Assembly: GCA_945860135.1 (NCBI GenBank)
Contig: CAMAPK010000001.1
Location: 124,001-188,000, forward strand
Origin: Nitrosovibrio sp. Nv4
GTDB taxonomy: Bacteria > Pseudomonadota > Gammaproteobacteria > Burkholderiales > Nitrosomonadaceae
Direction of reading: 5' to 3'
DNA: 64,000 nt
The position numbers and the translations under genes are program-made. Of the stretch, positions 1-12,039 are shown in pieces. The notes under the pieces were generated by a model. It did no database searches. It was given only the letters and a program-made list of their open reading frames with translations, and was not told where the DNA came from. Position 1 is the first letter of the stretch. The number at the start of each line of letters is the position of its first letter.

Positions 1-952
1 AATGAGCGGAATGAATGCCGCCGCCCGCCACGCTCACGTTCGGCAAGCGCCGCAATGAGGAATCCCTGGTCAGGGTCTGCTGCCAGCCGCCGCGTGTATG
101 TGGTTTGATCATCAATTCCACGCCAGGGAAAGAGGCGATCAACTGCACCACATAACCGACTTCCTCCCAGAATGTCGTGAAATTGCTCTTTCTCAGAAAC
201 ATCAGTACCTTGAGCCGGCTGTCGGAGCGAGGCAGCGGCGAAGGCGGCAACAACGTGGCGAGCTTGGTCAGCCATTCATCGCAATAGCGCGGCGAACCCA
301 GTACGGCGATTTTCTGGTTGTCCATGAACGGACGGAAGCGTCCGGCGCATAATTCATTTGGCACCACCAGCTTGTCAAACATGCGTCCGGCGGAAAACAG
401 TGCATCCGGTCCGAGTTTCAGCTCATTGCGCCGTATCAGTTGACTGGCATGCGGGCTGTCGCCATGCGGCAGCGACACGATACCGAGACCCGCAGCGTGC
501 GCCATCGACACCACGATTTCGACCCACTCCACGCTGATGGTCGAGTTTCTTTCAACCCAGTCAAACGCCACCACGCCCCCGTCAGCCCCCTCGAATGTAC
601 GTGTCAGCAAGCGCTGGGTGGTGCGGCGCCAGATCGGCTCGCGCCGTTTGGCATCATAAAACTGGGCTACTGCATTGACGATCGGACCCAACAGCGGCAG
701 CCGCAAACCGCGGATCAACAGCAACATCTGCCCCCGCCACCTGATGAACTCGGACAGTGGCAGCAACTCCTGAATATGCGCCACGCGCACGCCCGGCAGT
801 TTCTTCAGAAATTCGATGCGGAAATCGTTGCGGAAATACTCGAAACCGATCAGGACGACATCGCAGCTATGGCCGGAATCGACCCATTTGGAGATGACCG
901 GGGTAATGTGATCTACATCGTTGTAATGACGCAGAAAGAAAAGGGCCTTCAT
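1..952 (-). CDS. Glycosyltransferase-like protein, partial (3' end beyond window)
   Basis: Reading leftward from an ATG at 952, an open frame runs without a stop to the window edge (about 317 residues visible). The protein starts MKALFFLRHYNDVDHITPVI, and its second half carries a segment (LIASFPGVELMIKPHTRGGW) of the kind seen in CDP-glycerol glycerophosphotransferase or GT-B-like enzymes. There is no signal peptide, so it is probably cytoplasmic or peripheral. It diverges from kdsB, and its neighbours (CMP-sugar synthetase, aldolase, epimerase, HAD) fit surface-polysaccharide assembly. The family is not securely recognised; the fold and role are inferred from the tail motif and context. The frame is strongly coding while the plus-strand frames opposite it are not. 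Confidence 0.6.
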   Translation of the reverse strand, partial: MKALFFLRHYNDVDHITPVISKWVDSGHSCDVVLIGFEYFRNDFRIEFLKKLPGVRVAHIQELLPLSEFIRWRGQMLLLIRGLRLPLLGPIVNAVAQFYDAKRREPIWRRTTQRLLTRTFEGADGGVVAFDWVERNSTISVEWVEIVVSMAHAAGLGIVSLPHGDSPHASQLIRRNELKLGPDALFSAGRMFDKLVVPNELCAGRFRPFMDNQKIAVLGSPRYCDEWLTKLATLLPPSPLPRSDSRLKVLMFLRKSNFTTFWEEVGYVVQLIASFPGVELMIKPHTRGGWQQTLTRDSSLRRLPNVSVAGGGIHSAH

Positions 953-1288
953 ACCCTTATTCTTGGGGAGTTAAAAACGAGCAGCGTATCAATCATTTGT
1001 TGAGTATTCCAGAGCTGAGCTCAGGGGGTGAAAACGCGCGCAATTGTACACCGGCAGGGATGCAATTGCCAGTCGGGCCACTGCTCCGCAACCCCGTCGG
1101 GGAACTAGGGAACAATATAAACCGTTCCAGTTTCTCGCAGAGTATCACCGCTGGTGGTAGGATAGCGTTTGTGGGATAGATGCACCCTCAGAATCCATAT
1201 TCCCAACCCTCGTTATCGGATTGGATGACCAGTAATCGAGGGCAAAACACCGATCAATCGATAAACACCAATAAAACATAAATTGCCG
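953..1288. other. Divergent intergenic region, no gene seen
   Basis: This 336-base stretch separates the leftward partial gene from rightward kdsB. I see no convincing small gene or terminator. It must hold two divergent promoters. An A/T-rich segment with a CGATCAATCGAT palindrome (about 1251-1262) lies just ahead of kdsB but does not match a regulator site I know. Confidence 0.4.
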
Positions 1289-2038
1289 ATGAAAACAATC
1301 GCTGTAATACCGGCACGCATGGGTTCGTCGCGTTTCCCGGGCAAACCGCTCGCAAAACTGCTGGGGCGCACCATGCTGGAACATATCTACAAGCGCGTCA
1401 CCCTGAGCCATGCGCTCGACGCCACTTATATCGCCACTTGCGATGAGGAGATCCGTCAGGCAGCGCAGAGTTTCGGTGCTGCCGTGATCATGACATCAGA
1501 CACTCATGAGCGCGCCAGCGACCGCGTCGCCGAAGCAGTCGCCGGGATTGATGCAGATCTCATCGTCATGGTGCAAGGCGACGAACCGATGACGCGTCCG
1601 GAGATGATCGATGCGGCGGTAGCGCCATTCCGCGACGATCCGCAACTGGGATGTGTGAATCTGGTGCGCCGCATCGAAAACGAGGTTGATTTCTACGACG
1701 TCAACACCATTAAGGTGGTAATGAATCAACAAGGCGATGCGCTTTATATGTCACGGCAGCCGGTCCCGACGCTGGCCAAATCAGGTTTCGCCCAGACTCT
1801 GGCCTACAAACAGGTATGCATCATCCCGTTCCGGCGCGCCACCCTGTTTGACTACACCAGTTTGCCGTCAACACCATTGGAACGGCTGGAATCGGTGGAC
1901 ATGCTGCGACTGCTGGAACATGGCTACCGGGTGAAAATGGTGGAAACCGGGTTTGACACCCAGGCGGTGGACACCGAGGCTGATCTGGCACGGGTAGCCG
2001 GACTGATGGCAACAGATCCCCTGCTCGCCTCTTATTGA
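1289..2038 (+). CDS. kdsB: 3-deoxy-manno-octulosonate cytidylyltransferase (CMP-Kdo synthetase)
   Basis: The enzyme couples CTP and Kdo (or a related 3-deoxy-ulosonic acid) to give the CMP-sugar used by glycosyltransferases. The nucleotide-binding signature IPARMGSSRFPGKPL spans residues 7-21, followed by a VQGDEP metal/substrate segment and a normal C-terminus. At 249 residues it matches the family's usual ~248. ATG 1289 was preferred over an in-frame TTG six bases upstream because it places the conserved MKTIAVIPAR at the N-terminus. In betaproteobacteria the housekeeping kdsB usually sits by lpxK and adk. Here it lies among an aldolase, a dehydrogenase and an epimerase, so it may be a second copy dedicated to a capsule or other surface sugar (inference). 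Confidence 0.93.
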   Translation: MKTIAVIPARMGSSRFPGKPLAKLLGRTMLEHIYKRVTLSHALDATYIATCDEEIRQAAQSFGAAVIMTSDTHERASDRVAEAVAGIDADLIVMVQGDEPMTRPEMIDAAVAPFRDDPQLGCVNLVRRIENEVDFYDVNTIKVVMNQQGDALYMSRQPVPTLAKSGFAQTLAYKQVCIIPFRRATLFDYTSLPSTPLERLESVDMLRLLEHGYRVKMVETGFDTQAVDTEADLARVAGLMATDPLLASY

Positions 2039-2093
2039 AATAATGTGCCGCCTGCTACCGGCGCATGGCGACGATCTTTATTAAGGAATGTTC

Positions 2094-2855
2094 ATGCAAT
2101 TGAAATCGAAACTGTCCCAGGGTGAGTTGACCATAGGCTCGTGGATCACGCTGGGGCACCCGGCGATAGCCGAAATCATGGCCGCCGCCGGGTTTGACTG
2201 GCTGGTGCTGGATATGGAACACAGCGTGCTGGAGTTGAGTGAAATCCAAACCCTGATCCAGGTGCTTGACGGGCAGCAGTGTCCGGCCATTGTGCGACTG
2301 ACTTCGAACCACCCTGACCAGATCAAACGGGTCATGGATGCGGGCGCAACCGGTGTGATGGTGCCCATGGTCAAATCTGCCGCCGATGCCAAAGCAGCCG
2401 TGCAATCGGTCTATTACCCGCCCCGCGGCCAGCGCGGGGTCGGTCTGGCCCGCGCCCAGGGTTATGGCGCACGGTTCCAGCAATACCGGGGCTGGCTGGA
2501 GGATAACGCCGTCATTGTGGCCATGATAGAACATGTGGATGCGGTCAAGGCCATTGACGAAATTCTCGCCGTTGACGGAATCGACGCCTATATCATCGGT
2601 CCTTACGATTTATCCGGTTCCATGGGGCGACCCGGCGAACTCGATCACCCGGACGTGCAATCCGCAATAGCGCGAGTACTGGAAGCCGGACAGCGTTCGG
2701 GCAAGCCAGGAGGTATCCATGTGATCGAACCAGATCAGGAGGAGCTGCAGCGGCGCATTGCGGCTGGTTTCAATTTTCTCGGTTATGGCCTGGATATCCG
2801 CATTCTCGATTCCCTCTGCCGCAGTCATATGCAGAACATCAGGGCAAACCTGTGA
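2094..2855 (+). CDS. HpcH/HpaI family aldolase
   Basis: A class II pyruvate-dependent aldolase of the HpcH/HpaI (2-keto-3-deoxy acid aldolase) family, which reversibly cleaves or forms 2-keto-3-deoxy acids. Visible family segments are AAAGFDWLVLDMEHS near the N-terminus, MDAGATGVMVPMVKS in the middle (metal-site region), and YIIGPYDLSGSMG near residue 180. The length of 253 residues is typical. Start 2094 is chosen because an AAGGA ribosome site (2083-2087) sits six bases upstream; it would abut the alternative ATG at 2088. It follows kdsB by 55 bases and overlaps the next gene by four bases (GTGA), so the two are translationally coupled. The context suggests it makes or degrades a 3-deoxy-ulosonic acid rather than acting in aromatic catabolism; that is inference. 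Confidence 0.85.
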   Translation: MQLKSKLSQGELTIGSWITLGHPAIAEIMAAAGFDWLVLDMEHSVLELSEIQTLIQVLDGQQCPAIVRLTSNHPDQIKRVMDAGATGVMVPMVKSAADAKAAVQSVYYPPRGQRGVGLARAQGYGARFQQYRGWLEDNAVIVAMIEHVDAVKAIDEILAVDGIDAYIIGPYDLSGSMGRPGELDHPDVQSAIARVLEAGQRSGKPGGIHVIEPDQEELQRRIAAGFNFLGYGLDIRILDSLCRSHMQNIRANL

Positions 2856-3781
2856 GCAAGCTTGTCATCTCCACCTCCTCATTCGATGTGGACAACAATC
2901 CTCCGCTCCAGCGTCTGCTGAAAGCGGGAATGCAGATTGTCAGCAACAGCCACGGGCGAAAACTCACCGAAGAAGAGATCAGCGGATTACTGGGCACCGA
3001 TACTGTCGGCATGATCGCCGGCATAGAACCATTGACTGAAAACGTATTCGCATCCGCCAGCAGCCTGCGGGTGGTAGCACGCTGCGGCGCGGGTCTGGAC
3101 AGTGTCGATCTGGCAGCGGCACAGCGGCGCAACATTGCCGTCTCCAATACGCCGGAGGCTCCGTCCCAGGCGGTCGCAGAACTCACGCTGGGTCTGATGC
3201 TGGCTGCGCTGAGACGGATATGCCAGACCGACCGGCAATTACGTGCAGGCGAGTGGCCACGGATGCAGGGCCAATTGCTCGCTGCGCAAGTGGTCGGCAT
3301 CGTTGGTCTGGGACACATCGGCCGGCGTGTTGCCCGCCTGTGCCAGGCCTTCGGCGCTGAAGTCGTGGCGCATGATCCTTATATAACTCAGTCACCCGAC
3401 GGGATAACATTGCTGCCGCTGGAAAAATTGCTGGCGCAAGCGAACGTCATCAGCCTGCACCTGCCCTATGGCAGCGGCACCCACCACCTGCTGGACGCCG
3501 CGGCGTTTGCGTGCATGCGGCCGGGGGCTGTGGTGATCAATGCCGCGCGCGGCGGTCTCGTCGACGAGACCGCGCTGGGCGAGGCACTTGCTTCCGGAAA
3601 ACTGGCTATGGCTGCACTTGACGTTTTCGAGCAGGAACCCTATCGCGGTCCGCTGCTCAAATGTGACAACATAATTCTGACCTCTCACATCGGCTCCCTT
3701 GCCAAGGAATCGCGCCAGCGCATGGAAATAGAGGCCGCGGAAAATCTACTGCAGGGTTTGATCAAAGCAGGTCTAACCTAA
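2852..3781 (+). CDS. D-2-hydroxyacid dehydrogenase (phosphoglycerate dehydrogenase-like)
   Basis: A 309-residue NAD-dependent D-isomer-specific 2-hydroxyacid dehydrogenase. The Rossmann motif GLGHIG is at residues 152-157. The catalytic residues expected for the family are present: Arg in NAARGG (R233), Glu in DVFEQEP (about E262) and His in SHIG (H279). It lacks the C-terminal ACT domain of many SerA proteins, so it is a short form and the substrate cannot be fixed from sequence. The GTG start overlaps the stop of the aldolase gene, which argues for a shared pathway: for example interconverting a 2-keto acid made or consumed by the aldolase. Confidence 0.85.
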   Translation: MSKLVISTSSFDVDNNPPLQRLLKAGMQIVSNSHGRKLTEEEISGLLGTDTVGMIAGIEPLTENVFASASSLRVVARCGAGLDSVDLAAAQRRNIAVSNTPEAPSQAVAELTLGLMLAALRRICQTDRQLRAGEWPRMQGQLLAAQVVGIVGLGHIGRRVARLCQAFGAEVVAHDPYITQSPDGITLLPLEKLLAQANVISLHLPYGSGTHHLLDAAAFACMRPGAVVINAARGGLVDETALGEALASGKLAMAALDVFEQEPYRGPLLKCDNIILTSHIGSLAKESRQRMEIEAAENLLQGLIKAGLT

Positions 3782-3900
3782 ATCCGGCAATTGACCGCTT
3801 ATTTTTCAATTTAACACCATGACTTATAATAATTTCTTGCATAGATTAAGCTTCACCTTCTGGGTGAGTTCGCTACCGGGTAGATTGCACGATTTTTGCA

Positions 3901-3960
3901 GCGCATGGCTGCGTTGCAACTCCTTGGAATGGAACAACCATTCCGCGTCGTTGCGCCTTG
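3901..3960. repeat. Imperfect palindromic intergenic element
   Basis: The gap between the dehydrogenase and epimerase genes contains an imperfect inverted repeat centred on a perfect 7-bp stem GGAATGG/CCATTCC (3926-3932 and 3938-3944, 5-base loop). Partially matching outer arms share GGC and GCAAC blocks. It resembles dispersed REP-like elements, but copy number elsewhere cannot be judged from this window. No gene is supported in 3782-4034. Confidence 0.4.
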
Positions 3961-4034
3961 CCCTACACACCAAAAACCGCACACTCTACCCCGTTCAATT
4001 ACCGGATTTAGGTTTAATGGAGAATACATAAATA

Positions 4035-4967
4035 ATGATATCTGACAAAATTGCCATTGTGTTCGGTGCCAGCGGCTTTCTTGGCAGCCATGTGGCTGAT
4101 GCGCTATCGGCTGCCGGTTACCGGGTGCGCTTGTTTGACCGCTGTCCGTCACCCTACTGCAGTCCCGATCAGGAGATGATCATCGGTGACATCATGAACC
4201 TCGAACAGGTGGTAGAAGCGGCCCGTGGCGCCAGCGTAGTCTACAATTTCGCCGCCATCGCCGATATTGATGAAGCCCATAATAACCCACTGGCCACTGC
4301 AACCATCAACGTCCTGGGCAATATGCACGTACTGGAAGCGGCCCGCCTTGCCGGTGCTCGCCGGTTCGTCTTCGCCAGCACCATTTACGTCTACTCCGAG
4401 TCCGGCTCCTTCTACCGTGCCAGCAAACAGGCGGCAGAGCGCTTCATCGAAACCTATCACGAGCGCTACGGACTGGACTACAGCATTTTGCGCTATGGCT
4501 CTCTCTACGGCAGACGCGCCGATACCCGCAATGGCATCTACCGCATGCTGCATGAAGCAGTGGAACGGCATTCGATCACTTATCAGGGTAGCGGCGAGGC
4601 AATTCGCGAGTATATTCATGTCGAGGATGCGGCGCGCATGAGTGTGCAGGTGCTGGCGCCCGAATTTGCCAACCGCCACCTGATCCTGACCGGACAGGAA
4701 CGGTTGCGCATCAAGGAAGTCATGACCATGATCTCGGAAATCATGCCGTGGCAGGTGGAACTGCATTTTGATGAAGCCAATGCGGTACACCATTACGAAA
4801 TAACGCCCTACGCGTTTCAACCGCGTGTTGGCCGCAAGCTGATGCTCAACGAGCATGTCGATCTGGGTCAGGGCCTGCTCGACTGCCTCAGGGATATCCA
4901 CACGGCACTGCATCACTCCGGTGAAGACGATGACGCCACGCCAGCGGTATCCGACAACCGGGCATGA
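4035..4967 (+). CDS. NAD-dependent epimerase/dehydratase (extended SDR)
   Basis: A nucleotide-sugar epimerase or dehydratase of the extended short-chain dehydrogenase family, 310 residues. The cofactor motif GASGFLG is at residues 11-17, and the catalytic pair Tyr127 and Lys131 appears as YRASK. A GRRADTRNGIYR segment and an IREYIHVEDAA segment are typical of UDP-sugar epimerases. A GGAGAA ribosome site lies ten bases upstream of the ATG. It overlaps the following HAD gene by four bases (ATGA). The exact sugar substrate is not determinable. With kdsB, the aldolase and a phosphatase close by, it most likely supplies an activated sugar for a surface glycan. Confidence 0.88.
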   Translation: MISDKIAIVFGASGFLGSHVADALSAAGYRVRLFDRCPSPYCSPDQEMIIGDIMNLEQVVEAARGASVVYNFAAIADIDEAHNNPLATATINVLGNMHVLEAARLAGARRFVFASTIYVYSESGSFYRASKQAAERFIETYHERYGLDYSILRYGSLYGRRADTRNGIYRMLHEAVERHSITYQGSGEAIREYIHVEDAARMSVQVLAPEFANRHLILTGQERLRIKEVMTMISEIMPWQVELHFDEANAVHHYEITPYAFQPRVGRKLMLNEHVDLGQGLLDCLRDIHTALHHSGEDDDATPAVSDNRA

Positions 4968-5605
4968 GGACGGTAGATTGGCAAGCCATCATCTTCGACT
5001 TTGACGGGGTGGTGGTCGAGTCCGGGGACATCAAGACACAGGCTTTCGCTGAGCTCTATCGCCCTCATGGCGAGGCAGTGACGGCAGCAGTGGTGCAGTA
5101 CCATAGACTGAATGGCGGCATGTCGCGCTACCAGAAATTCCGCTACTTTCAGCAACACCTGCTGGGCAAGCCGCCGCTGACACCGGACGAAGAGCAGGAA
5201 CTGGACCGGCAGTTTTCAGAACTGGTGGTCGAAGCCATCGTTACCGGCGAGGCGGTACCCGGCGCGAACGAATTCATCCGTCAGCAAGCAGCGCGCATAC
5301 CTTTGTTCGTCGCCTCCGGCACACCGGAAACAGAACTGAACAGCATCGTCATGCGGCGCGGTCTGGCGCCCTACTTTACCGGGGTACGCGGCTCCCCCAC
5401 ATCAAAACAGGCATTGATCGCGGACATCCTGTCAGTCCACGCCCTTGCTCCCGAGCGTGTGCTGATGATTGGTGATGCGCTGATCGATTATCAGAGTGCA
5501 CAGTTGAATGGCGTTGCGTTTCTGGGCCGGGTACGCGCTGGGGACGATAATCCCTTCCCGCCGCAGGTGGAAACGGTGGCCGACCTGAGCTCACTGCTCG
5601 CTTGA
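4964..5605 (+). CDS. HAD-family hydrolase (phosphatase or phosphomutase type)
   Basis: A 213-residue haloacid-dehalogenase superfamily hydrolase of the beta-phosphoglucomutase / phosphoglycolate phosphatase subgroup. Motif I is DFDGVV with nucleophile Asp12 and acid/base Asp14, motif II is the Ser/Thr in VASGTPE, motif III is the Lys in SPTSK, and motif IV is GDALIDYQSA. A helical cap sits between motifs I and II. All catalytic elements are present, so it should be active on a small phosphorylated compound. It is translationally coupled to the epimerase gene and is the last rightward gene before a strand switch. A sugar-phosphate substrate is inferred from context only. Confidence 0.85.
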   Translation: MRTVDWQAIIFDFDGVVVESGDIKTQAFAELYRPHGEAVTAAVVQYHRLNGGMSRYQKFRYFQQHLLGKPPLTPDEEQELDRQFSELVVEAIVTGEAVPGANEFIRQQAARIPLFVASGTPETELNSIVMRRGLAPYFTGVRGSPTSKQALIADILSVHALAPERVLMIGDALIDYQSAQLNGVAFLGRVRAGDDNPFPPQVETVADLSSLLA

Positions 5606-5618
5606 ACCTAGATAAGCA

Positions 5619-6590
5619 TCAACGCAGCACGCCGCGCCGCAACAGTTGCCAGAAAATCTTATAACCCCACAACACGGGATGGCGTCGCAACATGGGGGTG
5701 ACCTCGACACGCACCCCGGTGTGGCGCTCTATTTTCCAGGCAGCGTAACTTACGCAATCGCGGAAGGTGAATGCCGCTTTCGTCAGCCGCAGCACCGACA
5801 GAATTCTCCCCTGCCAGCGGCGCAGCCGCCAGTGCCGCAGTGAACGCTGTTGCTCCGCCGCATCAGCCAGACAGCGGTAATTGCCATCCGGCAGAACCTC
5901 CAGTTTTCCAGTCAGCACCGGTACAGCCTGCGCCGTCAACCGGGTATAGTCATCCAGATTAAGCTGGGTCAGCAGGCGCGCCCGCGTTTCCCGCTCAGCC
6001 CGGAGTTCTGCCGCATAGGTCAGGGCCAAACCCCTGGTCCAGATTTCTTCTGCGTTCACCACGCATGAGCCCAGCGCCGGGATGCTGGACTCGAGAAATG
6101 TCACCACCGACTGGGCCAGCACCTGGTGAATGCGCTGGCGGGCAATGTCATCGCGCACATGCAGCAGCCGCGTGGGTTGAGCAAAACGCGCCCACAGATA
6201 GGGATGAAACCAGTAGCGGGTGCCCTGTTCAAAATCCGCCATTGAAACCACCGCATATTTGGCGCGGAACTTCTTTTCCTGCCTGGATGCCTCCAGATAA
6301 AAAACGTTCGGCGCCAGCCACGCATTAAGGTGCCGTAAATAACGTTCCGGGTAAGCGTTGCTGTAGCTATCCACCACCACGTAAAAATCGACAACTCCGT
6401 CAGCAGCATCCTGCGAACGCAGGCACGATCCATAGAGAATCACGGCATCCAGCGACGCGCCGAAACGTGACTTCAGCTCTTCGACCAGGACTGAAAAATC
6501 TGCCGGCACTACTCTGGAACTCAAGGATGCCATCTCGGCAATCAAGCCGTCCGGGAGCCGCTGGGCAGATGTCGAGATATGGTTCGTCAT
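5619..6590 (-). CDS. Nucleotidyltransferase-fold protein with altered active site
   Basis: A 323-residue protein whose N-terminal part resembles the polymerase-beta/MNT nucleotidyltransferase fold: VILYGSCLRS at residues 51-59, then VDFYVVVD at 67-74. In active members the glycine-serine motif is followed by an Asp-x-Asp pair; here the pair reads D68-F-Y70, so the second metal ligand is missing at the usual spot, although D74 might substitute. The C-terminal half is basic and largely helical, with no recognised domain. It overlaps the upstream lipid-kinase gene by four bases (ATGA) and is surely co-translated with it, suggesting a joint role in lipid head-group modification. Function not recognised. 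Confidence 0.75.
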   Translation of the reverse strand: MTNHISTSAQRLPDGLIAEMASLSSRVVPADFSVLVEELKSRFGASLDAVILYGSCLRSQDAADGVVDFYVVVDSYSNAYPERYLRHLNAWLAPNVFYLEASRQEKKFRAKYAVVSMADFEQGTRYWFHPYLWARFAQPTRLLHVRDDIARQRIHQVLAQSVVTFLESSIPALGSCVVNAEEIWTRGLALTYAAELRAERETRARLLTQLNLDDYTRLTAQAVPVLTGKLEVLPDGNYRCLADAAEQQRSLRHWRLRRWQGRILSVLRLTKAAFTFRDCVSYAAWKIERHTGVRVEVTPMLRRHPVLWGYKIFWQLLRRGVLR

Positions 6591-7603
6591 TGTTGCGGGT
6601 CTGTATTTTTATCGCCAGGCACCAGAAAGGTAACCGGTCCGGCTGCCGAAATACGCAGCGGCCCATCCTGGCTTGTTGCCCGATGAAATTCACCATCGAT
6701 GATGTAATCGTCATCCATCAGCAGCTCCAATACGCTGGTGTTGTGACTGTGATAACCGTCTTGTTCTTTGATGGCATCACTGTGACCGGAAAGCAGCAGC
6801 CATAACGCGCGCCATGGATGATTCCGCTGCTGCTCAACAAACGTGACATGCAGTGGCTCCTGCTCCTGCCCCCAGTAGGGGCGCATGCTAAACAGCAGGC
6901 GATCAAGCGCGCTGGCGAAAAGAACCAGATAAGTTCCATTGCGGACTGCCCCACTCGCCTCGGTGATTGTCATCTGAATCGGCGCCCATGGCCCATGCTT
7001 GCGTCCAAGAATCATACCGGCAAGATAGCCCAACATGATGATGCCCGAATAGATTTCTCCGGTGATGCCCAGCCGTTTGACCTTGCTGCGGGAGAATATT
7101 ACGGCATGGGCGATGAGACCGACGCCGAAGAACATGCCATAAATCTTGCTGGCGCCGGGCTGCTCAATGCACAATACCGGGCGTTGCAACAATATGGGCG
7201 AGATCTGTTGTGACAGGCAACTGCTTAACCGCCGCAGGATGACCTCCGGTTTGTCGTGTATTCCCAGATCCAGCGCAGTCATGTTGGTGGTGCCGCCGGG
7301 AACGATGGTCAGAACCGGCCATTTTGCAAGTCGAGTCGTAAACAAGTGAGTCAACACCGCCTGCACCGTGCCATCCCCGCCAATGATTACCAGCAAATCG
7401 ACATCGGCTTGCAGAAAAGTGTCTACCGCTGCGCCGATCTCCGCCGCGCTCGTCACCTCCCGGCAGGTCGCAGCGGGAATTTCGGCTAGCATGCGTCTTA
7501 TCACGTCGATATGCTTGCGGATACGCCCGCTGAGAGGATTGAGAAGCAACCCGACCCTGGCCGCTCCCATCCCCAATCTATCAATCTGCAACTGTTCTAC
7601 CAT
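6587..7603 (-). CDS. Diacylglycerol-kinase-type lipid kinase
   Basis: A 338-residue lipid kinase with the DAGK catalytic domain, which phosphorylates a membrane lipid hydroxyl using ATP. The nucleotide-binding motif GGDGT is at residues 75-79 and PGGTTN at 102-107 (the usual GTxND region reads GTTNMTALDLG). Family members (YegS, BmrU, DgkB and, in Caulobacter, a ceramide kinase) act at the inner face of the cytoplasmic membrane. The length fits. It is coupled to the nucleotidyltransferase-fold gene and lies beyond a 214-base gap from lptG on the same strand. The substrate could be diacylglycerol, a sphingoid base or ceramide; the GNAT acyltransferase upstream makes the latter worth testing. 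An internal Met12 is an alternative start. Confidence 0.85.
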   Translation of the reverse strand: MVEQLQIDRLGMGAARVGLLLNPLSGRIRKHIDVIRRMLAEIPAATCREVTSAAEIGAAVDTFLQADVDLLVIIGGDGTVQAVLTHLFTTRLAKWPVLTIVPGGTTNMTALDLGIHDKPEVILRRLSSCLSQQISPILLQRPVLCIEQPGASKIYGMFFGVGLIAHAVIFSRSKVKRLGITGEIYSGIIMLGYLAGMILGRKHGPWAPIQMTITEASGAVRNGTYLVLFASALDRLLFSMRPYWGQEQEPLHVTFVEQQRNHPWRALWLLLSGHSDAIKEQDGYHSHNTSVLELLMDDDYIIDGEFHRATSQDGPLRISAAGPVTFLVPGDKNTDPQQ

Positions 7604-7817
7604 CTATCTCAACCAGTACACGGCTAAAAATCGGACGGGCGGTTTCTCTTGATTCCGGCCGGGAGCGCTCTCTCCAAATGCCGCTGTAAAGTACCATGAC
7701 TGCGCCAAGCACACCAGCCAATTACCACCCTGTATCACAGAAATAACAGCGCATGCGCAATGCGCAGATCATCACCAGCCCACCATCATAGCCGCGCGGG
7801 ATTTATTCAGAGGTGCC

Positions 7818-8882
7818 CTAAAAGACTCGCCGCAGCCAGAGATTGGCCAGGGTGATCAGCGCCAATCCCGGGAGCAGCGCGGTCAGCAGCGGATTGAAAT
7901 GCAGCAGCAAACCGGCATTGGCAATAATCTGATCCAGCAGATAAACGCCCACACCGATCAAGGCAGCGAGCACCACTTTTTTACCAAGACCTGTGCGCGC
8001 CGAACCGAGAACAAAGGGTATGGAAAACAGCAGCATCGCGATGGTTGTCAATGCTCCCCCCATTTTGCGCCACAAGGCCATCGCATAGGCATCCGCTTCC
8101 TGACCCGTAGCCTGCAGAAAACGTACATGCTGAAACAGCTCAGTAGGTGAAAGACTCTCCGGTGACTTGGTCAGGGTCGAGATATCAGCCGGATTCACGA
8201 ATGATTTCCAGTTCATCGAACTCGCATTTACCGACTCGATTCGTTCTCCGGTAAAGGTCTTGGTGACGACATCATTCAATTCCCAGAGATTATCATCAAG
8301 AATATTGGCATATTCGGCATGAGTATAGGTCCTCAGGAAACCATTATCATCAAAGTGCATCAACTCGATATTCTCTGCCCTCTTGGTGCCCTGCATTTCA
8401 CCGATGCGTAATATATTCCGTTCATCCCGGGTCCAGATACCCAGATTCTTGCCCAGTTCCGCAGTCTTGCCGAGAGCGGCGGCCTGATGCGAAATGGCTT
8501 TCTGCTGGAAATGTGGGGCAATAAATTGCTCCAGTACCGCAATGAATAACAACAGGGCCAGTCCAACCCCGAGAGGGGCCAGACTGATGCGAACGGGGGA
8601 GAGACCTGCTACCCGTAACGCGGTCAGCTCCAGGTTGACTGCCAGGCGCCCCAAAGCAAACACGGTTCCCAGCAATGCAATGAATGGCGCAAGCTGAATA
8701 AATCTGCGCGGCAACAATAATGCCGTGTGCAGGAATGCATCCTGCACACGGTAAGTTCCTTTGCCGACATCGCCGAGTTGATCCAACAAATCGAGGAAAG
8801 CAAATGCCGGCAAGATTACCGCAGTGGCAACGATCAGGCCGATGAAAACCTGCAACGCGAGATAACGGTTGATTATTGTCAT
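7818..8882 (-). CDS. lptG: LPS export permease LptG
   Basis: A 354-residue inner-membrane permease of the YjgP/YjgQ family, one half of the LptB2FG exporter that lifts lipopolysaccharide from the inner membrane to the LptCA bridge. There are three N-terminal membrane helices (residues 5-120), a periplasmic beta-jellyroll of about 150 residues (containing NLGIWTRDERNILRIG and the NPADISTLTKSPESLS region), and three C-terminal helices. The start is set at ATG 8882, where it overlaps the lptF stop by four bases and gives the usual MTIINRYLA N-terminus; a longer frame upstream would only add a non-conserved tail. The pair is not beside pepA, the common neighbour in proteobacteria, and instead sits inside a lipid-enzyme cluster. 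Confidence 0.9.
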   Translation of the reverse strand: MTIINRYLALQVFIGLIVATAVILPAFAFLDLLDQLGDVGKGTYRVQDAFLHTALLLPRRFIQLAPFIALLGTVFALGRLAVNLELTALRVAGLSPVRISLAPLGVGLALLLFIAVLEQFIAPHFQQKAISHQAAALGKTAELGKNLGIWTRDERNILRIGEMQGTKRAENIELMHFDDNGFLRTYTHAEYANILDDNLWELNDVVTKTFTGERIESVNASSMNWKSFVNPADISTLTKSPESLSPTELFQHVRFLQATGQEADAYAMALWRKMGGALTTIAMLLFSIPFVLGSARTGLGKKVVLAALIGVGVYLLDQIIANAGLLLHFNPLLTALLPGLALITLANLWLRRVF

Positions 8883-9955
8883 CGACGCAGAAGCATTCTC
8901 TGCTGGGGGCTGGATGACAGCAAACCGAGCGCGGTGATGAACATCAATGCATACAGCCACCAGACACCGGGCAGGCTGCCTACGGTGCCCTGCTCTACCC
9001 AGGTTTGAGCCAATCCGCTCAGAATATAATAAAGCGCGAAAACCATGGCGGCAGCAAACAAGTGTCTCTCGCCCTTATCCTGGCGCGGTGAAGCGCGAGT
9101 GAATGAGATGGCGATCAGCGCCAGCAGAATCGTCCCGATAGGGCGCGAAAGCCGCCATTGCAGTTCGGCAATGTCGCGTGGCTGGTCCGATCCTGCCAGA
9201 AACAGGCTGGTAGCCGCCTTGCGTGCATAGCCTGTTGCACCGCCTTTATCAGTGAAATACACCAGCTTGTCGAACTGGGCAACGGTGTCTTTCGTGGTGG
9301 CATGCATAAAGCGATAGACAAAACCATCTAGCAAATGGATCTGGGATCGCTGCCCGAACTGAAATTGCTGCTGGCCCGCTTCCTTGGCCACGATGATCTC
9401 GCTGCTGTCGCCTTTGTTGACGTAATGGAATACATTTTTCATCTGCTTGCCGGCGTCATCCTTGCTCTGGATATAAATTACTCTGCCGCTACCTTCACTT
9501 CCATAGAAACGTCCAGCTTGAAATCGGTCCGTATTTAGTTCTGCCTCTGCCTGCGCATTCAGCACAAAGTTTTCTTGATAAGCCCAGGGGCGTACAAAGA
9601 TGGACAGCAGGCCGATGATGATTCCGATGGGGATGGCAACCATCAGGACGGCGTAGATTATGCGACGGTCGCTGACGCCGGCAGAACGCAACACATTGAT
9701 TTCCTGATCCCGGTGCAACCGGCCAAGACCGACGACGATGGCAACATAAAGGGCGAGCTGCATCAGCACGTCCAGGGAGATTACAGTCTTTAGCAATACC
9801 AGTTTCAGCATGACCATCACACCCAGCGACTCGGTCACTGCCCCCGCCAGAAAACGGCCACTGATGAAACTCGCATACAGTCCCGCCAGGATCACGATAA
9901 TCACCGTAAACGGTATCAACAACTCGCGTGTGATATAGCGCTCTATTATTTTCAC
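8879..9955 (-). CDS. lptF: LPS export permease LptF
   Basis: A 358-residue LptF partner of LptG, with the same six-helix and periplasmic-domain plan. The N-terminus IIERYITRELLIPF is characteristic, HRDQEINVLRSAGVS forms the coupling segment that docks on the LptB ATPase, and the periplasmic domain follows around residues 130-260. I prefer the GTG at 9955, which has an AAGGGA ribosome site six bases upstream and gives the family-typical N-terminus. An in-frame ATG at 9994 would add 13 residues without a visible ribosome site. It lies 53 bases after the nucleotidyltransferase gene on the same strand and overlaps lptG by four bases. Confidence 0.9.
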   Translation of the reverse strand: MKIIERYITRELLIPFTVIIVILAGLYASFISGRFLAGAVTESLGVMVMLKLVLLKTVISLDVLMQLALYVAIVVGLGRLHRDQEINVLRSAGVSDRRIIYAVLMVAIPIGIIIGLLSIFVRPWAYQENFVLNAQAEAELNTDRFQAGRFYGSEGSGRVIYIQSKDDAGKQMKNVFHYVNKGDSSEIIVAKEAGQQQFQFGQRSQIHLLDGFVYRFMHATTKDTVAQFDKLVYFTDKGGATGYARKAATSLFLAGSDQPRDIAELQWRLSRPIGTILLALIAISFTRASPRQDKGERHLFAAAMVFALYYILSGLAQTWVEQGTVGSLPGVWWLYALMFITALGLLSSSPQQRMLLRR

Positions 9956-10008
9956 GAATTTCCCTTGCTGCCCTCGTAGTAAAACGGTGTTCATGCGGCC
10001 GGATGCCG

Positions 10009-10839
10009 TTATGTGGACCTGCTTTCATCCTGGGAAGACGCCGCTGCTTTCGCCAGGATGGATTCCACCAGCAGCATATCCTCGACTTTGTCGACATCGA
10101 CACCCGCCTGCGGGTAAGGCAGAGTCACGGTCCGCACCTTGACCCCGACTCTGGCCGAGACCGCATTCAGCGCCCGGTCGAGTGTCAGCGATCCCAGCAG
10201 ATAGGAGAGAACGGCGCCTGGGCCAAGCACCTGTGCGATCAGGCGCCAAGGGCGTTTGCGCAAATCTTCTGCCCGTTGCCAGAATGTCACCAGATCACGA
10301 CCGCGATGATTGAAAAATGCATAGAGGTTGCAGCCACAAACCCCTCCATCACGCAATCGTATTGCCGTACGCTTGGTGCCCGGAAATGCGGCTGCCACAT
10401 CAGCATGTTTGACTACTCCCACCGTGGCATCACTATCCATCGTGCGGGACTCGCATAGAAAATAGCGGATGATCGCAGGCGTCAATAACGCATGATCCGC
10501 TGTCGTCAACAATACCGGTGCGTCATGATCCATCTGCGCCAGACCGCTATTGGCACTGCGGCTGGGTGAATTCAGGTTCGGCAGCCATGTGACACGCCCC
10601 GATTCTATCCGCCGCTGCAACTCCGGACAGTCAGGGAGCATGGATGCAGGTGGCCCGCACACCACAATCTTCCCCACCATCTCACTCGCCTCCAGCGCAT
10701 CCAGCACCCGAATGATCATGGGCGTTCCGGCGATCGGTGCAAGCGCCTTGCAAGCCGTCCCCGCCCTGCTGGCGACCGGGTCGTGCGCTGTGCGATCCGC
10801 TGCCAGTACCACAGCGCTAAATCGGTCGGTCTGATTCAT
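10009..10839 (-). CDS. MobA-like NTP transferase domain protein
   Basis: A 276-residue protein with a glycosyltransferase-A-like nucleotidyltransferase fold. The N-terminal signature of the family (LAAG-x-G-x-RM ... PK) is recognisable but altered: LAAD at residues 12-15, and KALAPIAGTPMI starting at Lys31. The central LLTTADHALLTP (residues 114-125) is the metal-binding strand equivalent, and VDVDKVEDMLLVE near the C-terminus matches the common V-DVDTPED type ending. Enzymes of this fold make CDP- or UDP-activated head groups or cofactors. Position between the GNAT gene (45 bases upstream) and lptF suggests lipid head-group activation. The substrate is unknown, and the Gly-to-Asp change at position 15 is unusual. 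Confidence 0.75.
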   Translation of the reverse strand: MNQTDRFSAVVLAADRTAHDPVASRAGTACKALAPIAGTPMIIRVLDALEASEMVGKIVVCGPPASMLPDCPELQRRIESGRVTWLPNLNSPSRSANSGLAQMDHDAPVLLTTADHALLTPAIIRYFLCESRTMDSDATVGVVKHADVAAAFPGTKRTAIRLRDGGVCGCNLYAFFNHRGRDLVTFWQRAEDLRKRPWRLIAQVLGPGAVLSYLLGSLTLDRALNAVSARVGVKVRTVTLPYPQAGVDVDKVEDMLLVESILAKAAASSQDESRST

Positions 10840-10884
10840 CTGAAATTCCGATCCTGATATCGTCTTGTCTGCCTACTATGCCGT

Positions 10885-12039
10885 TTACAGGGTCTTGCCG
10901 TAGATCCGGTAACGCTTATACTGCCTGCTGCCAATGAGATCAAGAATTGAACGCATTGCTTTGTTATCCTCAAGTATCCACGACATTTCAACTTCCTTGA
11001 TTCCTGCGGAAAGCGCTGACTTCCGGGGCTCATCGATCACCATGAAAGCCAGCGCCATACCAAGGGGAGTATTCTGAAATTGCTTGCGCACCCCCATCAG
11101 GGGTATCCGGCCGGTACGAACCGCACGGTCTCTAAACCACCGGATCAGCCGAAGCCAGCCAAATGGAAACAAGCTGCCATCAAGTTTGGCAAAGATCTCG
11201 TTGAGATTGGGCAATCCCACCATGAATGCTGCCGGAACACCATCGACTTCGGCAATCTGGATGAAATACTCCGGCACAAGCAGACGCAAGCTACTGCCCA
11301 GCTCGGCAAACTCGGCCTCGGTAAAAGGAACGAAGCCCCAGTTCTCTGACCAGGCATCGTTGAATATATCGCGCAGTATTTCCATCTCCGCACTGAAGTT
11401 ATCCATGCGTAGCGTCCTGAGCTTTATATGTTTGGAAAATTTACCGATCAGGGAACGCATTACTCGAGGCACCTCAAAATCTACGTCTACCCAGTAGGCA
11501 AGCAGATCCTTAACCGGTTGATAACCCTGTTCTTCGAGTAAACGGCCATACCATTTTGGTGAGTGCGGCATCATCACCATCGGCGGGGTGTCGAAGCCAT
11601 CCACCAGAATGCCGCATTCCTGATTGATGGACAAGTTGAACGGTCCGCTGACATGCCTGGTATGGCGGGCAGCCAGCCATGCCTCGGCAACACCTATCAG
11701 CGCAGCGCATACTTCCGTATCGTCCACACATTCCATTGAGCCAAAGTGGCCGGTATCCGCACCATGGTGTTGCCGGTGAAGCTGATCGACCTGCGCGCTG
11801 ATCCTTCCTAGCGGCTGATTATTCCGGTACGCGATCCAGGCTTGCCATTCTCCGTGCTTGAAGAATGAATTAAACCGGGAAAAATGCAGCCGCCGTTCCA
11901 GACGTAATGGCGGCACCCACATGGGGTCATCTGCGTAGATGCGCCAGGGGAGGTCGATAAATACCCCCATCTCACGATAATTTGTGACCGGGCGCACGCT
12001 AACCGCTGCAGACGTTAACTGGCTGTGATTTTCATTCAT
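10885..12039 (-). CDS. GNAT-fold acyltransferase (YghO-like)
   Basis: A 384-residue protein with the features of the YghO-like GNAT family: an N-terminal half with FIDLPWRIYADDPMWVPPL (about residues 24-42), a central HVSGPFNLSINQECGILVDG, and a C-terminal GNAT-like lobe with EYFIQIAEVDGVPAAFMVG and a closing EVEMSWILEDN. As I recall, this wider family includes the bacterial ceramide synthase of Caulobacter, which acylates a sphingoid base; that assignment here is inference. The start at 12039 puts the conserved VRPV-x-F-x-LPW segment near the N-terminus. A longer frame to 12189 exists but is not family-like. No clear ribosome site is visible. It heads the minus-strand lipid locus. Confidence 0.75.
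   Translation of the reverse strand: MNENHSQLTSAAVSVRPVTNYREMGVFIDLPWRIYADDPMWVPPLRLERRLHFSRFNSFFKHGEWQAWIAYRNNQPLGRISAQVDQLHRQHHGADTGHFGSMECVDDTEVCAALIGVAEAWLAARHTRHVSGPFNLSINQECGILVDGFDTPPMVMMPHSPKWYGRLLEEQGYQPVKDLLAYWVDVDFEVPRVMRSLIGKFSKHIKLRTLRMDNFSAEMEILRDIFNDAWSENWGFVPFTEAEFAELGSSLRLLVPEYFIQIAEVDGVPAAFMVGLPNLNEIFAKLDGSLFPFGWLRLIRWFRDRAVRTGRIPLMGVRKQFQNTPLGMALAFMVIDEPRKSALSAGIKEVEMSWILEDNKAMRSILDLIGSRQYKRYRIYGKTL

Follow-up and report, generated by a model that had tools for sequence, protein, structure and literature searches.

A locus in the genome of Nitrosovibrio sp. Nv4 (Nitrosomonadaceae; GenBank assembly GCA_945860135.1) probably directs the synthesis and export of a phosphosphingolipid, which in the Nitrosomonadaceae would have replaced lipid A. 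The locus comprises six genes on the minus strand at positions 5619-12039 of the window, the 64,000-nucleotide stretch analysed here (contig CAMAPK010000001.1, positions 124,001 to 188,000 of the forward strand), itself part of a 2.04 Mb genome in 39 contigs that is 89% complete. Gene content and linkage, protein folds, the absence of LpxC matches, the presence of LptD and the grouping of LptF and LptG in trees lead us to consider this function likely, a degree of confidence that attaches to what the locus does and not to the history of its LptF/LptG pair. We propose the replacement of lipid A because LpxC was not found and because the sole remaining LptF/LptG pair belongs to a sphingolipid-linked clade.

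Lipid A genes and the single LptF/LptG pair

The LptF/LptG permease pair and the LptD translocon of the Lpt system are present in the genome, while the lipid A enzyme LpxC was not found. For LpxC and LptD the same holds across the family: in a panel of 61 genomes searched for the GNAT-fold acyltransferase of the locus, LpxC and LptD, LpxC is found in 0/37 Nitrosomonadaceae (the window's own genome included) versus 24/24 genomes from other families of the order. The LpxC-less members include four single-contig genomes that are 99-100% complete (G010, G015, G019 and G033), and LptD is present in 61/61 genomes, that is, in 37/37 family members. Independent support comes from a published analysis of nine lipid A genes, in which lpxK alone was present in N. 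europaea and lpxA alone in N. multiformis, a pattern attributed there to genome reduction (PMC3087551).

The GNAT protein occurs in 35 of the 61 genomes, namely our own, 34/36 of the other family members and 0/24 from the order's other families. The named relatives that carry it belong to Nitrosospira, Nitrosovibrio and Nitrosomonas, the closest being a Nitrosospira metagenome-assembled genome (MAG) from Lake Pavin at 99% identity. Two LptF/LptG matches were obtained in each of 34 family genomes and three in G033, whereas G007 and G029 gave none and have no GNAT match either. Comparison of coordinates shows that in 35/35 family genomes having a pair, one lies no more than 5 kb from the GNAT gene. 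The LptF/LptG pair and the DAGK_cat match of the locus are the only ones found in the window's own genome.

Gene content of the locus

The initial annotation described six same-strand genes, and all six open reading frames (ORFs) were confirmed. They are listed in gene order, with Caulobacter crescentus (CC) counterparts assigned by gene order:

10885..12039, minus strand: tandem GNAT-fold N-acyltransferase, counterpart of CerS (CC_1154)
10009..10839, minus strand: MobA-like nucleotidyltransferase, counterpart of CC_1153
8879..9994, minus strand: LptF of the sphingolipid-linked clade (PF03739 and tree grouping)
7818..8882, minus strand: LptG of the sphingolipid-linked clade (TIGR04408 and tree grouping)
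6587..7603, minus strand: DAGK-type lipid kinase, counterpart of the ceramide kinase CpgB (CC_1160)
5619..6590, minus strand: Tam41-type nucleotidyltransferase (NT)-fold protein, counterpart of CpgC (CC_1161)

LptF and LptG score 199.2 and 214.3 bits against PF03739 (Pfam cut-off 27.9), and LptG scores 313 bits against the NCBIfam LptG equivalog TIGR04408 (cut-off 240). The kinase matches PF00781 (DAGK_cat) with 64.6 bits (cut-off 23.6), and the MobA-like protein matches PF12804 with 59.9 bits (cut-off 27) and PDB entry 2dpw with an E value of 9.1e-23. The GNAT protein has no significant match in Pfam or NCBIfam; the best structural matches of its AlphaFold model (mean pLDDT 82) are tandem GNAT structures. 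The NT protein scores 17.2 bits against the Tam41 family PF09139, below the gathering score of 24, and the top five PDB matches of its AlphaFold model (pLDDT 84) are all Tam41 CDP-diacylglycerol (CDP-DAG) synthases (E 1.2e-7 to 3.4e-7, TM 0.46-0.58). Tam41 is the mitochondrial-type CDP-DAG synthase.

Overlaps of 4 bases do occur, as originally noted, but 'several' amounts to two: one between the NT and kinase genes (6587-6590) and one between LptF and LptG, the latter dependent on LptG starting at the internal ATG at 8882. This start, chosen from sequence, is likelier than the GTG at 8960 with which the ORF as listed begins. LptG and the kinase gene are 214 bases apart.

Relation to known sphingolipid clusters

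Judged by gene content and order, the window locus belongs to a known type, the phosphosphingolipid (CPG) cluster. In Caulobacter CC_1154 is CerS, CC_1156/CC_1155 are LptF2/LptG2, CC_1160 is the ceramide kinase and CC_1161 has been suggested as a possible CDP-DAG synthase-like activator (PMC11324152). Gene order would pair these with the GNAT protein, LptF/LptG, the kinase and the NT protein, respectively, and CC_1153 with the MobA-like protein; the Tam41 fold of the NT protein fits the role suggested for CC_1161. Two further loci make the correspondence explicit: L209 carries, in order, spt, NT, DAGK, CpgA, LptG, GNAT and MobA (LptF assigned by position), L213, whose stretch starts with NT and so shows no spt, otherwise repeats this order (LptF again assigned by position), and both follow the sequence of the Caulobacter loci numbered CC_1162 to CC_1153 in the literature (PMC11324152). 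The kinase gene is followed directly by the NT gene, as in L209, L213 and L136. In two gammaproteobacterial MAGs (loci L135 and L136) the spt operon stands divergently beside GNAT-MobA-LptF-LptG, followed by CpgA and NT, with a DAGK match in L136 only.

Counterparts of CerS, the CofC-like CC_1153, LptF2/LptG2, the ceramide kinase and CC_1161 are thus shared with the Caulobacter CPG/CPG2 cluster (CC_1152-CC_1168), as is the presence of an spt operon in the genome (PMC11324152). Caulobacter, a control genome here, differs in having LpxC, and its cluster-borne LptF/LptG are second versions (PMC11324152), whereas searches of the window genome yielded a single pair and neither LpxC nor CpgA, and its spt operon lies on another contig.

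Within the Nitrosomonadaceae the order GNAT-MobA-LptF-LptG-DAGK-NT, often with CpgA preceding DAGK, recurs, so the arrangement is not due to chance; only in G011 do DAGK and NT depart from it, lying several kb away from the other genes. Of 92 named loci, 80 were retained, all except L135 and L136 probably from Nitrosomonadaceae; among these, MobA was found in 76, LptF in 76, LptG in 74, DAGK in 62 and NT in 63, many contigs ending inside the cluster.

The initial annotation had proposed synthesis and export of a phosphorylated sphingolipid-like lipid and had placed the base-forming step outside the window. A sphingoid-base synthase is indeed encoded in the genome, in an aasR-cerR-acpR-spt operon on a separate contig (C30, locus L042):

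C30 6923-8788: fatty acyl-AMP ligase, aasR (AMP-ligase domain)
C30 8796-9710: NAD epimerase, cerR (epimerase domain)
C30 9744-9998: acyl carrier protein, acpR (ACP domain)
C30 9995-11182: serine palmitoyltransferase, spt (SerpalmtaseBetaP)
C30 11294-13024: ABC exporter with a relationship to HepA and MsbA that stays below their NCBIfam cut-offs

With 598.9 bits, Spt clears the cut-off of 500 for the NCBIfam family SerpalmtaseBetaP, and its ten best PDB matches by sequence are all serine palmitoyltransferases. The genome has 15 PF00155 matches; the classification covered L003 alone, which reads as an alpha-oxoamine synthase. Together with the shared neighbours and the adjacency seen in L135 and L136, the operon supports the phosphosphingolipid proposal. 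The nearest described relative is Nitrosomonas eutropha, a member of the same family with the same aasR-epi-acpR-spt order (Neut_0458-0461) and a separate CerS locus (Neut_1100) (PMC9386255; PMC11324152).

From what is known of the protein families, Spt, AcpR, AasR and CerR would form the sphingoid base, which the GNAT protein would acylate to ceramide. The DAGK-type kinase would then phosphorylate ceramide, the Tam41-type protein would activate or extend the resulting ceramide-1-phosphate, and the MobA-like enzyme would supply or activate material for the headgroup. Flipping of the lipid may fall to the ABC exporter encoded next to spt, after which LptF/LptG would extract it and hand it over via the Lpt bridge to LptD, giving a lipid of this putative structure the place of lipid A in the Nitrosomonadaceae.

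Phylogeny of LptF and LptG and alternative explanations

Trees were built from 61 LptG and 50 LptF sequences after removal of three long-branch betaproteobacterial rows; the LptF trees are without LptF from 12/17 other-class linked pairs, which the filter did not recover. The family LptG groups with the CerS-linked LptG of L135, L136 and G173 with support 99/94, and LptF does likewise (100/98). L135, L136 and G173, the last of which appears to be a gammaproteobacterium (same class, other order), have four LptFG genes each, and their second LptG and LptF fall with the betaproteobacterial housekeeping rows (LptG 96/96; LptF 89/95). LpxC was found in G173, and the CerS match of this genome carries one in-frame stop.

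Alternative topologies were compared by approximately unbiased (AU) tests after removal of further rows; in the test joining family, gammaproteobacterial linked and betaproteobacterial housekeeping pairs, the rows removed included both G173 pairs. A clade of family and betaproteobacterial housekeeping LptG was rejected (p-AU 1e-7). A single origin of all CerS-linked LptG was weakly rejected (p-AU 0.024), the other-class linked LptG not grouping with those of the Nitrosomonadaceae and gammaproteobacteria, and we do not claim it. That the family LptFG groups with sphingolipid-linked LptFG is firm, and more than one history of the pair is compatible with it.

The best-surviving alternative concerns this history and is compatible with the proposed function. 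Lipid A would have been lost, the vertically inherited LptFG pair recruited into the cluster, and the cluster later passed to gammaproteobacteria. We regard this as possible though not probable: the corresponding clade of family, gammaproteobacterial linked and betaproteobacterial housekeeping sequences withstands the test on LptG (p-AU 0.099), but LptF weakly rejects it (p-AU 0.026), and the gamma- and betaproteobacterial housekeeping rows group with each other in the best trees (LptG 89/90, LptF 99/97).

The lipid might instead stay in the inner membrane or serve in minor amounts as a stress lipid, with phospholipid or a polysaccharide-anchored lipid making up the outer leaflet. An apparent surface-polysaccharide region, read from sequence starts, does adjoin the locus; the embedding of the single LptFG pair among lipid genes and the retention of LptD in every family genome speak against this explanation, which we consider improbable. 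Marginally less probable still is that an ordinary betaproteobacterial LptF/LptG merely sits beside sphingolipid genes and carries some different cargo, be it a glycolipid or a product of unknown enzymes that resembles lipid A. This might be argued from the sole LptFG pair found, the retained LptD and a housekeeping-like aspartate at LptG residue 34 (see below), but the rejected clade with housekeeping LptG, the absence of LpxC matches, the constant proximity to CerS and the related pairs of L135 and L136, which adjoin the spt operon in genomes that have their second pair at another site, all tell against it.

The residue in question comes from a candidate marker that we rejected. K34, K40 and K41 of E. 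coli LptG, which have a role in lipopolysaccharide (LPS) contact, are replaced in the window protein, but its Asp at position 34 is shared by 19/20 betaproteobacterial housekeeping LptG.

Several points weigh against replacement of lipid A by an exported phosphosphingolipid. The residue test failed to separate sphingolipid-linked from housekeeping LptG, the topology with a vertical pair recruited and then passed on survives for LptG and fails weakly for LptF, and names were given to the groups in the trees once an initial tree had been inspected. The genome-wide Spt search covered the window's own genome only; the lpx and Lpt searches were confined to LpxC, LptD, LptF and LptG, and of the three genomes with CerS-linked pairs grouping with the family's, the LpxC search covered G173 only. 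Outside the family, three LpxC-less genomes do not fit, G193 having no LptFG match and G331 and G351 having their pair on another contig, and many of the 25 LpxC-less genomes compared in the next section come from one family, so that the exact test given there overstates independence.

The same pattern elsewhere in the phylum

A CerS-type GNAT protein was found in 48/397 sampled genomes of the phylum, 46 of them outside the Nitrosomonadaceae, and LpxC was not found in 28 of these 46. An LptFG pair lies within 20 kb of CerS in 30/46, and here a second pair accompanies LpxC: it is present in 5/5 genomes with LpxC and 0/25 without (Fisher p 7e-6, for genomes that are related and not independent samples). 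The other 16 comprise G193, G331 and G351 (see above), G226 (LpxC present), which has one LptFG gene near CerS, and 12 LpxC-bearing genomes in which no pair is linked to CerS.

Sphingomonads are known as LPS-free bacteria with glycosphingolipids. The other-class LpxC-less genomes, probably mostly sphingomonads, resemble the Nitrosomonadaceae in having CerS, no LpxC match and, in most cases, a single LptFG pair close to CerS. The single CerS-adjacent pair in genomes such as G084, G251 and G395 (probably sphingomonads) suggests that sphingolipid travels via Lpt there also. At L223 in G193, CerS and an Spt operon are present, with no LpxC and no LptF/LptG match; the sphingolipid of this genome may travel by another route.

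Probable loss of CpgA, and the adjoining plus-strand module

Two further features lie next to the six genes:

7657..7752, minus strand: probable decayed C-terminal remnant of CpgA, a CDP-alcohol phosphatidyltransferase (tblastn)
1283..5605, plus strand: five-gene module of KdsB-like protein, HpcH aldolase, 2-hydroxyacid dehydrogenase, NAD epimerase and HAD protein (Pfam/NCBIfam), convergent with the lipid genes

CpgA (CC_1159) is required in Caulobacter for CPG2 and not for CPG (PMC11324152). It is present in 25/37 family genomes and in 0/9 of the window's genus (our own and eight congeners). The remnant was detected with the CpgA C-termini of 50 relatives (best E 1.5e-7) in the gap between LptG and the kinase gene, where relatives carry CpgA. 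A similar scar is present in L057, L058 and L060, that is, in 3/10 CpgA-less named loci (counting those with LptG and DAGK); tblastn found none in the other seven CpgA-less gaps, and 4 control gaps likewise gave no match at E<=0.05. Being without CpgA, the window's genus should stop short of CPG2 and have a simpler headgroup. The MobA-like enzyme is kept, though its Caulobacter counterpart serves CPG2 formation, a retention for which we have no explanation.

The plus-strand module adjoins the cluster in all ten CpgA-less named loci (L057, L058, L060, L061, L064, L065, L066, L068, L090 and L100), L068 showing only the HAD and epimerase genes before its contig ends. In L074, L077, L119 and L126 module and CpgA are both present, and among the 80 loci the HAD gene occurs in 14 and the KdsB-like gene in 11. 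On the left flank, in window positions 1-5605 and L248 (C1:104500-124400), sugar nucleotidyltransferases, dehydratases and glycosyltransferases, read from their first 60 residues only, extend up to the KdsB-like module. They look like a surface-polysaccharide cluster, and the module probably belongs to it. A role for the module in the lipid pathway was considered and is not claimed: it co-occurs with missing CpgA, but its left flank looks polysaccharide-like.

A bolder reading would combine the two. A family-wide swap of lipid A for a ceramide-phosphate lipid via dedicated LptFG would be joined, where CpgA is missing, by a KdsB-like/aldolase module giving a CMP-activated keto-acid sugar that links polysaccharide to ceramide phosphate, resulting in a sphingolipid-anchored LPS analogue. 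Taken whole, this is unlikely: the lipid A swap is well supported, and the glycan link rests on neighbourhood only.

Relation to previous work and significance

Ammonia-oxidizing bacteria drive nitrification, and the present proposal offers a concrete, testable composition for the outer leaflet of those apparently without lipid A. If it is true, the family would provide a betaproteobacterial example of a sphingolipid standing in for LPS in nature. It would also show that the Lpt route can be given over entirely to a different lipid, with consequences for why some bacteria can do without LPS and for how LptFG selects its cargo. A CPG-type cluster has already been reported for N. eutropha; what is new is the absence of LpxC, the retention of LptD and the sole LptFG pair beside the ceramide synthase. 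In the available excerpts, the N. eutropha CPG orthologs are not linked to lipid A loss or to a single LptFG pair (PMC9386255; PMC11324152), and the window's genus differs further in being without CpgA. A search of open-licence literature (titles and abstract starts) returned no link between lipid A loss in the Nitrosomonadaceae and a sphingolipid cluster or single LptFG pair, nor any proposal for what fills the outer leaflet of these apparently lipid A-less ammonia oxidizers.

Variation among the named loci

No MobA-like gene was found between GNAT and LptF in L081, L102, L111 and L120. In G033 (L252, G033:C1:203000-222000), about 6 kb of DNA some 0.7 Mb from the main cluster brings together a second LptF, CpgA and an ABC exporter gene resembling the one beside spt. 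In L050 (G019), two frames at about 3766-5786, between a CpgA-like gene and LptG, were read as a putative potassium-uptake pair.

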